64,000 nt of DNA from Lysobacteraceae bacterium NML07-0707 (GTDB lineage Bacteria; Pseudomonadota; Gammaproteobacteria; Xanthomonadales; Xanthomonadaceae), in NCBI GenBank assembly GCA_002798295.1, contig NWQT01000034.1, forward strand, positions 1-64,000, written 5' to 3'. Numbering within the stretch: position 1 is the first letter of the stretch; the number at the start of each line of letters is the position of its first letter. Of the stretch, positions 35,425-38,776 are shown piece after piece. The translations under genes and the position numbers were made by a program. The notes beneath the pieces were generated by a model. That model searched no databases, was not told the DNA's origin, and saw only the letters and a list, made by a program, of their open reading frames with translations.

Positions 35425-37131
35425 TTATCCTGGCACCGCCAAATCCCCGGCACTCAAGTCCTTGCCCTCGCCTCGCGGACGCGCGGCAATTTCGGCATCT
35501 TCTGGCAATGCCGCCTTGCCATCCAGATAGGCATCGAGCCGGTCAAGTGCCGCATACACATACGGCAGCAGCGGCACATAGTGGGCAGCAAACTGCGGCA
35601 GCGCCAAGAACGCATCAAAATGCTGGGCATTTTCCACCTGCCACAGGCGCACCTCACGCCCGGCATCGCGCGCCGCCCGCACATAGGGCACGGCGCTGAA
35701 CGCCTGCGGGATCAGTCCATCGGCCTTGCCATGCACCACCATTACCGGCAGGCCTGGGCGCGGCAATGCCGCATGCGTCCCGGCCACGCCTTGTTGCAGC
35801 CGTTGGGCGATGGCGCTATCCCCCGTCCATAGCGCACGCAGGCATTCAAGGCCGGTGATGCCCCAATCTTCCGGCGCTGCCGGATCCACAATCTGTACAC
35901 CACTACCGGGCGGAATGCCGCTGGCATCGCTCCACCAGCTCGCGCGCGCCGCCGCATCGCCCAGCACAAAGCGGTAGCCGCACGGGTGTGCATCATGACC
36001 GCTGCCGGTATAGGCCGAGGCATAGGTCACCAATACCGCACGCCACATATCAAAGCCGGTACTGCTGGCGGCGGCAATCAGCGCAGCATCCTCCCAGCCA
36101 GCAGCTTTCAATCTGGCCAGCGCCGAGCGTTGCTGTTCGGCCAGTGTCTGGCCTTGCAACACGCCTTGCGCAGCGAGCCGCTTGCATAGCGCCTCACCAT
36201 TGGCTGGTGCGGGCAGCCCCAGCGCGGGCAAGGCACAGGGCATCAGCAAGGCCGCCTCGCTGGCGTAGTCATACAGCGTGCGCGCGCCGGGCACGGGCAG
36301 ATAGATATTGGGGGCGCCTGCCACCACGCCATCGAGCCAGTCGCCCTCAAGCTCGGCAGCGCGCAGCACGGCGCCGCCGCCATTGGAAATGCCGGTGGCA
36401 ATCACCCGGGTATTGCCGAAGGTGAACGGCGCGGCCTCGGGAAAGGCCAGGTTCAGGGCTTGCAAGCCAAATGCGGCGGCCTGCTGCACATGGCGCCCCC
36501 AGTCGCTTTCCGGATGGTCGCCCGAATGTGCATGCTTGGACGCCACGCCCTGACCGCGGGCGGGCACGGGCAAAAACACCGGCGCCTCATCAGCCGTCAC
36601 CAGGCGTCCGTCCAGCCCGACGCCCAGTCCGGCTTGCAGATCGAAATAATCACTGCCCGCGCCCTTGTCGGTATGCACCACCGCGCAGCCTCGCGGCAGC
36701 CCCCAGGCCGCACCCACTGCCATCGCGCCATAGACCCCGCGCGAGCCGGAAGCGGCGCTCACCACCAAACAGCGCTTGTCGTGGTCAAAGCCGTCGGGCA
36801 CTTGTGCCAGCACCCGGTGCGGATGGCGGGCGCCGGGCAGTGTGGCAAGACTTGAGTACTCACGCCCCGGCACAGCCCCAAGCGCGCCATACAGCCGCCC
36901 GTAACCGCCGCTTGGCGAAAGGTCGGCGATACCGCGCCAGCTTGACCAGATTGCGCGACGGCGCAGCTCGGCAGGCGTGGGCTTGCGACTATCGGCAAAC
37001 GCTGGTGGCTGCTGGCTACGCAAACCCGCAAGGCCAAGACCTGCGCTCAGAAGGTCATCCGCGCCGCGATGCGCGCTGACCAGAATCGGCGCTTCGACAT
37101 TGCATTTGGGAGAGTGGAAAGTTTTGTTCAT
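35425..37131 (-). CDS. D-(-)-3-hydroxybutyrate oligomer hydrolase
   Basis: 568 aa. It matches the 3HB-oligomer hydrolase family, which cuts short polyhydroxybutyrate oligomers to monomers. The nucleophile is Ser249 in ATGISNGGGAVLRAAE; RVLAQVPDGFDHDKRCLVV, AASGSRGVYGAMAVGAAWGL and VVHTDKGAGSDYFDL are typical of the family. No signal peptide is seen from the ATG at 37131, so it is predicted cytoplasmic, and it is shorter than the about 690-aa secreted forms. The ATG lacks a strong ribosome site. No other PHB gene is in the window. It is divergent from the MarR gene. Confidence 0.85.
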   Translation of the reverse strand: MNKTFHSPKCNVEAPILVSAHRGADDLLSAGLGLAGLRSQQPPAFADSRKPTPAELRRRAIWSSWRGIADLSPSGGYGRLYGALGAVPGREYSSLATLPGARHPHRVLAQVPDGFDHDKRCLVVSAASGSRGVYGAMAVGAAWGLPRGCAVVHTDKGAGSDYFDLQAGLGVGLDGRLVTADEAPVFLPVPARGQGVASKHAHSGDHPESDWGRHVQQAAAFGLQALNLAFPEAAPFTFGNTRVIATGISNGGGAVLRAAELEGDWLDGVVAGAPNIYLPVPGARTLYDYASEAALLMPCALPALGLPAPANGEALCKRLAAQGVLQGQTLAEQQRSALARLKAAGWEDAALIAAASSTGFDMWRAVLVTYASAYTGSGHDAHPCGYRFVLGDAAARASWWSDASGIPPGSGVQIVDPAAPEDWGITGLECLRALWTGDSAIAQRLQQGVAGTHAALPRPGLPVMVVHGKADGLIPQAFSAVPYVRAARDAGREVRLWQVENAQHFDAFLALPQFAAHYVPLLPYVYAALDRLDAYLDGKAALPEDAEIAARPRGEGKDLSAGDLAVPG

Positions 37132-37226
37132 GAGGACAAAAGCGGTTTGGGCAACACAGTCCCATCCTAGCTTTGCAATTCGCAGCCGGGGGCCAATATG
37201 GGACAAACCCTGCGCATAGGCTGATG

Positions 37227-37347
37227 AAAAAATCACCAGCCCCGGCAATCGCAGGCGGGACAAAGCTTCCTGAAACTTATCCACAAACTTGTGGGCAATG
37301 CCATCCACAACCGCTGTGGAAAAGCGCATCCAGACTGGTGATTTTTT
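37227..37347. repeat. Inverted repeat around the first DnaA-box pair
   Basis: AAAAAATCACCAG at 37227-37239 and its exact inverse CTGGTGATTTTTT at 37335-37347 bracket the first convergent DnaA pair. The rest of the 37132-37502 gap contains an AT-rich stretch just before the MarR gene (GCATTAATTAG near 37480) and a TACAAT -10-like hexamer at 37497-37502. Confidence 0.8.
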
Positions 37348-37436
37348 GTCCAGAGCACTACAGCGCTTGCCCGGCGCGGCTTAGCCGAGTTATCCACAAA
37401 CTTGCCTACAAGGAAGTACACAGTCAGTGTGGAAAA
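37277..37436. other. DnaA-box cluster (two repeated convergent pairs)
   Basis: Perfect TTATCCACA boxes lie at 37277-37285 and 37390-37398 on the plus strand. TTTTCCACA boxes, fitting TTWTNCACA, lie on the minus strand at 37315-37323 and 37428-37436. Each forward box is exactly 38 bp before its reverse partner. A weaker CCATCCACA is at 37301-37309. The density is far above chance. It could be an origin, a DnaA-titration locus or DnaA-controlled promoters; gene orientation around it does not support a replication-origin switch. Confidence 0.8.
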
Positions 37437-37502
37437 GCACCTGCCAGCCTGCTGCCGCGCAGCCAACAGCATGCCATTTGCATTAATTAGCTGCCATACA
37501 AT

Positions 37503-38006
37503 ATGATGGCTAACATGAAGCTGACACAAAAATACCAAGCGCTGCTTGATGAGGCGCAGCGGCGCGAGCTGCCTGATGTCCAGGGCATGAGGCTTTGTCT
37601 TGAGCTGCTGTCGGTGGCTGCCGATATCGACCGCGACTGCGCCGCACGCCTGGCGCCTTACGGCCTGTCCGAGGGACGCTTTGTCCTGCTGTTTTTGCTC
37701 GATGCCGCCAACGACGGGATAGCTCCGAATCTGCTGGCAGCGCGCGCGGGCATCACCCGTGCCACCGTCACCGGGCTGCTGGATGGTCTTGAGCGCGAGG
37801 CATTGATTGAGCGTCAGGCCGATGCCCATGACCGGCGCGCGCTGCGCATCGTGCTCACGCGCAAAGGCAAGCGCCTTGCCAAACAGGTGTTTGCCCAACA
37901 CAGCCTGTGGATTGCCAGCCTGTTGTCCGGCCTCTCCGGCGCAGAGCGCAAACAGCTCAGCGCACTGCTTGGCAAACTTGCCCAGCCTCTGGAGGCCGCC
38001 GCATGA
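37503..38006 (+). CDS. MarR-family transcriptional regulator
   Basis: 167 aa winged-helix regulator. The wHTH region is LLAARAGITRATVTGLLDGL followed by the wing ERQADAHDRRALRIVLT with the conserved DxRxxxI/V pattern. Helices at both ends would form the dimer interface. The start is uncertain: ATGs at 37503, 37506 and 37515 are possible, none with a good ribosome site, and a TACAAT hexamer touches the first, so the third may be used on a near-leaderless mRNA. It overlaps the AlkC-like gene by 4 nt (ATGA) and probably regulates this pair. Confidence 0.9.
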   Translation: MMANMKLTQKYQALLDEAQRRELPDVQGMRLCLELLSVAADIDRDCAARLAPYGLSEGRFVLLFLLDAANDGIAPNLLAARAGITRATVTGLLDGLEREALIERQADAHDRRALRIVLTRKGKRLAKQVFAQHSLWIASLLSGLSGAERKQLSALLGKLAQPLEAAA

Positions 38007-38776
38007 GCGACACCGCCACGCGCAAGGGCGCACGCCGCACCAGCGACATTCCTGCCGATATCCTGCAGGCGCTCTCGCGCGGCGAAATCGCCACCGCCAC
38101 CCTGACCGAAGGACTGGCGCTTGACCAGCGCCTGCTGGCGCAAAGCGTTTTCCCCGGCCTGCCTGCCACGGCGCTGCAAACCATCGACCTGGCCTGCCAG
38201 CAAGGTATCGTCAAGCGCATGACGGCCATCGCCGCCGTTTTGCTCGATGAGCTGGGCATCGACGGCATCAGCCAGTGCGCAGCGCATGGCTCGGATACGG
38301 TACGCGGCTGGGCCTGTTTCATGATCGGTGCACGGCAAGACCTGGATATTCCGGAGAGGCTTGCTGCCATCCGCCCACTGGCCGACGATGCCCATTTTGG
38401 CGTGCGCGAATGGGCATGGCTGGCCGTGCGCCCTCAACTGGTGCGTGAGCTTGAAACTGCCATCAGCGCCCTCGTACCGTGGACGCAGGAAGGCTCGGAG
38501 CGCTTGCGCCGTTTTGCCAGCGAAGTGCTGCGCCCGCGCGGCGTATGGTGCGCGCATATCAGCGCCTTGAAGCAACAGCCGCAACGGGCGCTGCCGATAC
38601 TGGCGGCACTCAATGCCGACCCGTCCCGCTATGTGCAGGACTCGGTCGCCAACTGGTTGAACGATGCGGCCAAAGACCAGCCCGGCTGGGTGACAGACCT
38701 GTGCCGGGCGTGGCAACAAACCTCAAACAGCGCCGCTACCCGGCGCATCTGCCAACGCGCCCTGCGCAATCTGTAA
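38003..38776 (+). CDS. HEAT-repeat DNA alkylation repair protein (AlkC/AlkD-like)
   Basis: 257 aa, mainly alpha-helical, resembling the AlkC/AlkD superfamily of HEAT-repeat 3-methyladenine DNA glycosylases. Supporting segments are DDAHFGVREWAWLAVRPQLV, RLRRFASEVLRPRGVWCAHI and DPSRYVQDSVANWLNDAAKD, followed by WV and a C-terminal ATRRICQRALR. The substrate (N3- or N7-alkyl purine) is inferred from the family. The N-terminus is basic (TRKGARRTSD). It is translationally coupled to the MarR gene. Confidence 0.8.
   Translation: MSDTATRKGARRTSDIPADILQALSRGEIATATLTEGLALDQRLLAQSVFPGLPATALQTIDLACQQGIVKRMTAIAAVLLDELGIDGISQCAAHGSDTVRGWACFMIGARQDLDIPERLAAIRPLADDAHFGVREWAWLAVRPQLVRELETAISALVPWTQEGSERLRRFASEVLRPRGVWCAHISALKQQPQRALPILAALNADPSRYVQDSVANWLNDAAKDQPGWVTDLCRAWQQTSNSAATRRICQRALRNL

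Follow-up and report, generated by a model that had tools for sequence, protein, structure and literature searches.

Control of the nucleotide state of DnaA by chromosomal sites is described, in passages of the literature, for E. coli and bacteria close to it as well as for V. cholerae, and part of a review states that DARS-like sequences occur in V. cholerae. Two such sites in E. coli share a compact arrangement of DnaA boxes: DARS1 is TTATCCACT-N5-TGTGGATAA-N3-TGTGTATTA, and DARS2 is TTATTCACC-N5-TGTGGATAG-N3-TGTGAAGAA. Head-to-head pairing of DnaA on boxes I and II is presented as a prominent feature of DARS in sections of PMC5742627, and also of PMC8682772. Excerpts of PMC4245941 describe a requirement of DARS2 for both IHF and Fis, and a crucial role of DnaA residue T435 in DARS2 activity; the passages on DARS1 in reviews state no requirement for IHF or Fis. 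A third site, datA, depends on an IHF site that is essential there, according to part of PMC4585315. Passages of PMC11317965 add that E. coli DnaA favors direct boxes 2-3 bp apart in vivo.

The locus described here, when its modules are read from the other strand, has the same three box positions as DARS1 and DARS2 plus one more. With moderate confidence, and from sequence comparison, we read it as a probable DnaA-reactivating element that resembles DARS, in a variant with four slots per module and two modules in tandem.

Two four-slot modules in an intergenic gap

The window (the whole 64,000-nucleotide stretch that was analyzed) contains two perfect DnaA boxes, TTATCCACA, on the + strand (37277-37285 and 37390-37398), each partnered by a perfect inverted box, TTTTCCACA, on the - strand (37315-37323 and 37428-37436). 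A first-pass annotation of this DNA had described two box pairs with one shared geometry, and direct reading confirmed it: box starts are 38 bp apart within each pair (37277/37315 and 37390/37428), and the pairs are 113 bp apart. That annotation had also listed one weaker box. The sequence is better read as two weaker slots per pair (37289 and 37301; 37402 and 37414). The 38 bp then resolve into 12+12+14, with three direct slots 3 bp apart followed by a convergent box across 5 bp. Module 1 (37277..37323, + strand) and module 2 (37390..37436, + strand) are each 47 bp long, with slots IV, III and I at 0, 12 and 24 on one strand, slot II at 38 on the opposite strand, and spacers of 3, 3 and 5 bp. 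In module 1, slot IV is TTATCCACA at 37277, slot III TTGTGGGCA at 37289, slot I CCATCCACA at 37301 and slot II TTTTCCACA at 37315 (- strand), with 8, 5, 6 and 8 matches to the consensus, each of 8. The corresponding slots of module 2 are TTATCCACA at 37390, TTGCCTACA at 37402, AAGTACACA at 37414 and TTTTCCACA at 37428 (- strand), with 8, 5, 5 and 8 matches.

Taken alone, the number of boxes is only modestly unusual. Two perfect boxes were observed against a shuffle mean of 0.15 (at least two in 1 of 100 shuffles), and TTWTNCACA occurred 7 times against a shuffle mean of 2.55, a count reached in 3 of 100 shuffles. Across the assembly, perfect TTATCCACA occurs 14 times, compared with 8 for the word read backwards. 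It is the geometry of the pairs, rather than box number, that is the strong part of the observation. A search of the 2,392,057 bases (2.39 Mb, 54 contigs) of this assembly found TTATCCACAN29TGTGGAAAA in exactly two places, both in the element, and no match in the backward controls.

The gap that holds the element is flanked on the left by a 3HB-oligomer hydrolase gene (35425..37131, - strand; Pfam PF10605) and on the right by a MarR-family regulator gene (37503..38006, + strand; Pfam PF12802 and PF01047). The divergent gap had been put at about 370 bp; it measures 371 bp, between 37131 and 37503, if the hydrolase starts at 37131. This start was our choice, because the mechanical open reading frame extends to an ATG at 37329. 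Subject to that uncertain start codon, the site of the element is non-coding and away from oriC. No RNA family reached its gathering threshold in 36500-38100.

Perfect DnaA boxes clustered in an intergenic gap would suit a chromosomal replication origin, or a second origin, which was among the options first proposed. Skew and the position of dnaA rule this out, leaving it virtually no probability. As the first-pass annotation had noted, dnaA lies outside the window, and it was located on contig C12 at 102848-104179. The cumulative GC-skew minimum (500-bp steps) is at C12:102500, adjoining dnaA at the dnaN/dnaA junction, and the 5-kb skew bins of C12 are positive in 0 of 20 cases before 100 kb and in 15 of 16 after it. 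On contig C2, which carries the element, only the left end contributes a positive bin (1 of 14), and the cumulative curve drops through the element with no change of sign. Base composition also differs: the dnaA-dnaN gap, which contains DnaA boxes, is 35% GC, whereas the window gap is 53% GC. AT content across the latter is 43-51% in 100-bp windows, compared with 65% in the dnaA-dnaN gap, and no AT-rich unwinding region is present. A relative with one element copy on each of two contigs (G009, C9 and C1) gave 1 positive bin of 61 per contig among the stretches sampled, neither at the element. Separately, two 5-kb bins of G009 at C9:304001-314000 (L266) have a GC skew of -0.21 to -0.23, much stronger than that of the sequence around them.

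Register and gene neighborhoods in relatives

The outer-pair pattern TTATCCACAN29TGTGGAAAA is present in 4 of 100 genomes, the window's own included (G000, G001, G009 and G012), all of one genus. Each carries a 113-bp tandem, and a different contig of G009 holds one extra, single copy; among the matches listed, the tandem occurs in the named records Lysobacteraceae NML95-0200 and NML08-0793. The full register, searched as TCCACAN18TNCACAN5TGTGGA, was found in 44 of 297 family genomes and 13 of 54 genera, with no backward matches; the genomes behind these counts are related to one another. Two or three matches are present in 16 of the 44 (a table count), with neighbors 113-184 bp apart except in G133 (591 bp). 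Conservation in close relatives, a check that had been proposed at the outset, proved partial. Six of the 17 genus genomes have the register (G000, G001, G008, G009, G012 and G016), and the other 11 lack the strict pattern, absence being judged by strict patterns in assemblies that are mostly drafts.

A conservation profile was built from 51 distinct modules at 38 loci. Mean information is 1.46-1.57 bits for slots IV, I and II, a level that the search pattern itself largely dictates, 0.89 bits for slot III, and 0.22, 0.68 and 0.48 bits for the spacers. Slot III, which the pattern leaves free, reaches 4.73 of 8 at the N3 register, compared with 1.00-2.98 at six other same-strand offsets; the best opposite-strand offset scores 3.65.

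The outer pair alone was rejected as a search query. It is too loose, with inner slots in just 9 of 114 stretches from named genomes. Among its matches, TTATCCACA-N29-TGTGGAAAA occurs in Komagataeibacter (L036, L055, L064) and Pedobacter (L038, L041, L057), at loci whose interiors are similar within each lineage and do not contain the inner register. These are perhaps DnaA-box loci of their own.

Given the pattern's absence from 11 of the 17 genus genomes, the weak inner slots of the window copy and one degenerate module in the G009 C1 copy, the element might be a relic that once worked and is no longer selected in this clade. This explanation is highly unlikely: the outer boxes and the 38-bp and 113-bp spacings are intact in four copies (G000, G001, G012 and G009 C9) despite variation in the sequence between them (82-85% identity).

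Dyads are also present near the modules. A 13-bp inverted repeat reported earlier is exact, with arms at 37227..37239 and 37335..37347; the left arm is part of an A-centered dyad, and the right arm is part of a T-centered dyad between the modules. G001 and G012 have a perfect between-module dyad; that of the window copy is imperfect. Of 7 copies, 4 have an A- or T-centered dyad between the modules with a stem of 6 bp or more, 58 bp (G001, G012 and G016) or 59 bp (G009 C1) after the start of the first slot IV. Both arms of the G016 dyad (L030) have changed together, CTGGTGA/TCACCAG compared with GTGGCGA/TCGCCAC. The dyad may be a site for a dyad-binding protein. A terminator function was considered and rejected, the T-run of the dyads sitting in the loop instead of a tail; the only site from a terminator scan of 37050-37600 falls within the MarR gene and is no more than expected by chance.

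Gene order around the element falls into several arrangements. The G000 locus reads nusA, rimP, hydrolase, element, MarR gene, HEAT gene; G001 and G012 share this order but have no hydrolase match. The G008 and G009 (C1) loci read nusA, rimP, hydrolase, LuxR-type response regulator, element, hybrid sensor kinase, and G016 has the same order but no hydrolase match. The differing orders of G000/G001/G012 and G008/G009/G016 indicate that the element stayed near rimP while its neighbors changed. The regulator and kinase genes also flank the element in Pseudoxanthomonas sp. PXM01 (L105) and at L213. Among 30 loci from other genera (L184-L213), folP adjoins the element in 27, with miaA on the opposite side in 18 of these and putP in 8; of the remainder, L192 has putP only, L196 has none of the tested genes, and L213 has the regulator and kinase. 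At L184-L212, which span several of the family's genera, the four-slot modules directly adjoin folP and often form tandems. The folP-side element is 1.28-1.39 Mb from dnaA in three single-contig genomes (G182, G281 and G292), all of one genus.

These neighborhoods bear on the possibility that the gap is a DnaA-controlled promoter region for the MarR gene, the hydrolase gene, or both, as had been suggested from the window alone. The flanking genes in the window are indeed divergent, the annotated MarR start lies 66 bp past the end of module 2, and the element precedes the MarR gene in four genomes; the MarR gene itself is present in 4 of 17 genus genomes. However, in G008, G009 (C1) and G016 the regulator and kinase genes are convergent and the element lies between their 3' ends, and in other genera it follows folP, at the 27 loci already noted. 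No sigma-70-like site was found in 37050-37600, which is weak evidence in the same direction. As the explanation of the element, promoter control is improbable, though it may apply in the window.

Plain DARS-type pairs in the order and class

Sites with DARS spacing are present in many related bacteria. The plain pair TTATCCACA-N5-TGTGGATAA was found in 78 of 100 order genomes, once in 71 of the 78, with no backward matches. When any spacer of 0-30 bp was allowed in 60 of these order genomes, 54 of 56 strict convergent pairs had a spacer of exactly 5 bp; the two remaining pairs have a spacer of 17 bp, which can be written as 3+9+5 with a box-like sequence in the middle. At the level of the class, TTATCCACN6TGTGGATAA occurs in 153 of 369 genomes, again with no backward matches. 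A third box was sought at 60 loci among the matches listed, 30 from the order and 30 from the class, with a cut-off of at least 6 of 8 matches. It lies exactly 3 bp outside the pair in 54 of the 60, compared with 0-4 of 60 at eight other spacers.

Many of these cores neighbor priA. A priA match is present within 1.5 kb of 15 of the 30 order loci and 13 of the 30 class loci, among the matches listed, and priA is present at 14 of 14 further loci from the genus (about 2 kb searched on each side), where the third box lies on the far side of the pair from priA, as judged by eye. At L150-L179 and L315-L344, the core of N5 pair and third box at 3 bp recurs across the order and the class, often beside priA. 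The window's own genome has two TTATCCACA-N5-TGTGGATAA pairs, 338 bp apart, upstream of priA (C35:6544-6904; L014-L017). Two priA-side pairs are present in G012 and three in G009, 336-338 bp apart. Among the matches listed with both on the same contig, the pair is 150-371 kb from dnaA in nine family genomes (G003, G006, G011, G013, G028, G029, G053, G054 and G055) and 36 kb from it in a tenth, G049; outside the family, pair and dnaA are about 0.9 Mb apart in G087, and in G092 about 1.1 Mb by the shorter way. In a limited literature search, no report linked a DnaA-reactivating sequence to Xanthomonas, or DARS or DnaA boxes to priA.

A tentative joint reading is that DARS-type reactivating cores, rather than being confined to E. 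coli and bacteria close to it, are widespread in Gammaproteobacteria, often beside priA, and that this family could have evolved a second kind of element with the same register. The second kind would be, equally tentatively, an extended DARS of four-slot modules, often in tandem, that either follows folP or sits near rimP, flanked by a response regulator and a hybrid kinase. The window would hold a copy of this second kind, and the cell would therefore have two structurally different DnaA stations. If so, both stations may recharge DnaA, or one may oppose the other. The spacing rule (5 bp convergent, 3 bp direct) finds candidate sites throughout the class, in draft genomes too, and would make DnaA recharging testable in other Gammaproteobacteria. 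The four-slot tandem, as a naturally occurring variant, lends itself to dissecting the role of each box.

Predicted function and comparison with E. coli DnaA sites

In the DARS-like reading, the four slots of each 47-bp module would be open to DnaA at set positions. Two DnaA molecules would meet head to head on the convergent pair with its 5-bp spacer, further DnaA would be drawn in by the direct slots at 3-bp spacing, and a strong box would anchor each end of the module. The resulting ADP-DnaA oligomer could then release ADP, as proposed for E. coli DARS, and DnaA freed in this way would take up ATP again; the higher level of ATP-DnaA would contribute to the timing of initiation at the real oriC beside dnaA. 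We infer DnaA binding from the box arrangement; that the element would reactivate DnaA and not inactivate it, and that two tandem modules would bring a benefit, are predictions at a further remove. Because E. coli DnaA prefers closely spaced direct boxes and pairs head to head on boxes I and II, the window element, with its strong outer and weak inner boxes, has a DARS-type look.

Several observations count against the DARS-like reading: the weak inner slots, the missing IHF consensus, a Fis match that other copies do not share, the register's presence in only 6 of 17 genus genomes, the degenerate module of the G009 C1 copy, flanking genes other than uvrB and mutH, and serine in place of DnaA T435. 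In favor of the reading, the DnaA of the window organism has 216 identities with E. coli DnaA in 441 aligned residues, and R399, R407, P423, D433, H434, D269, R285 and L290 are kept; against it, T435 is changed to S, V211 to F, R227 to T and R245 to S. The window copy contains no IHF consensus within 2 (or 1) mismatches, so that neither the IHF/Fis arrangement of DARS2 nor a datA-type IHF site between required boxes was found in it. An IHF reading of the A-tracts was rejected, there being no match in the window copy and only weak two-mismatch matches in 2 of 7 element copies, at differing positions. A Fis reading was also rejected, since the one consensus match in the window copy is absent from the six other copies.

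Decay or a sink would also be compatible with the weak inner slots, the lack of an IHF consensus and the patchy distribution. In the latter case, the modules of a DnaA sink or datA-like inactivating site would load many ATP-DnaA molecules, and less DnaA would be free or active once the locus has been replicated. Up to eight slots lie within 160 bp, strong boxes flank weak ones in a manner that would suit cooperative ATP-DnaA loading, and the tandem copies in 16 of the 44 register genomes would increase capacity; moreover, datA, DARS1 and DARS2 contribute jointly to titration in E. coli, according to part of PMC12371093. Nonetheless, a plain sink would have no need of an exact 12/12/14 register, datA has no N5 convergent pair at the threshold used, and the IHF dependence of datA has no counterpart in the window copy. 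We consider a sink doubtful. Of the earlier suggestion of a datA-like sink, a putative DnaA-binding locus outside oriC is supported, but its box spacing matches DARS and not datA. The first-pass interpretation as a whole is partly supported.

The preferred DARS-like reading draws on the family-wide register counts, the slot III score, the 5-bp spacer and third-box counts in relatives, and the placement of the element between convergent genes or near rimP. It also draws on a scan of 11 E. coli stretches (DARS1, DARS2, datA, oriC-mioC, nrdA, polA, purH, nrdD, rpoH, dnaA and rne), in which convergent pairs were called at no more than 2 mismatches in all. A 5-bp convergent spacer was found in DARS1 and DARS2 only, the other nine having none; at this threshold module 1 passes and module 2 fails. 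The spacing of DARS boxes I and II is present in both modules, with one partner at 6 of 8 in module 1 and 5 of 8 in module 2. At the position of DARS box III (direct, N3), both modules have a slot, with 5 of 8 matches each, and this register stands out over the 51 modules.

The known sites compare with the window element as follows. DARS1 and DARS2 share with it a convergent N5 pair, a further direct position at N3, weakly matched in the window, and an intergenic position away from oriC. The window element differs from them in several ways: each module has an additional strong slot, IV, 12 bp beyond slot III, the inner slots are weak, the modules form a tandem with a 113-bp offset, there is no IHF consensus, and the neighboring genes are not uvrB or mutH. 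The priA-side pair in the organism's own genome (C35) has the N5 convergent pair and the third box at N3; unlike the window element, it has strong boxes at both pair positions and lies beside priA, and no fourth slot was read there. The datA site is alike as a DnaA-box cluster outside oriC, but its one convergent pair has a 3-bp spacer, whereas the window pairs have 5 bp. The E. coli "double DnaA box" sites (polA, purH, nrdA and others) have direct boxes 2-3 bp apart, as described in passages of PMC11317965, which resembles the direct slots of the window; unlike the window modules, they have no N5 convergent pair in the scanned stretches.
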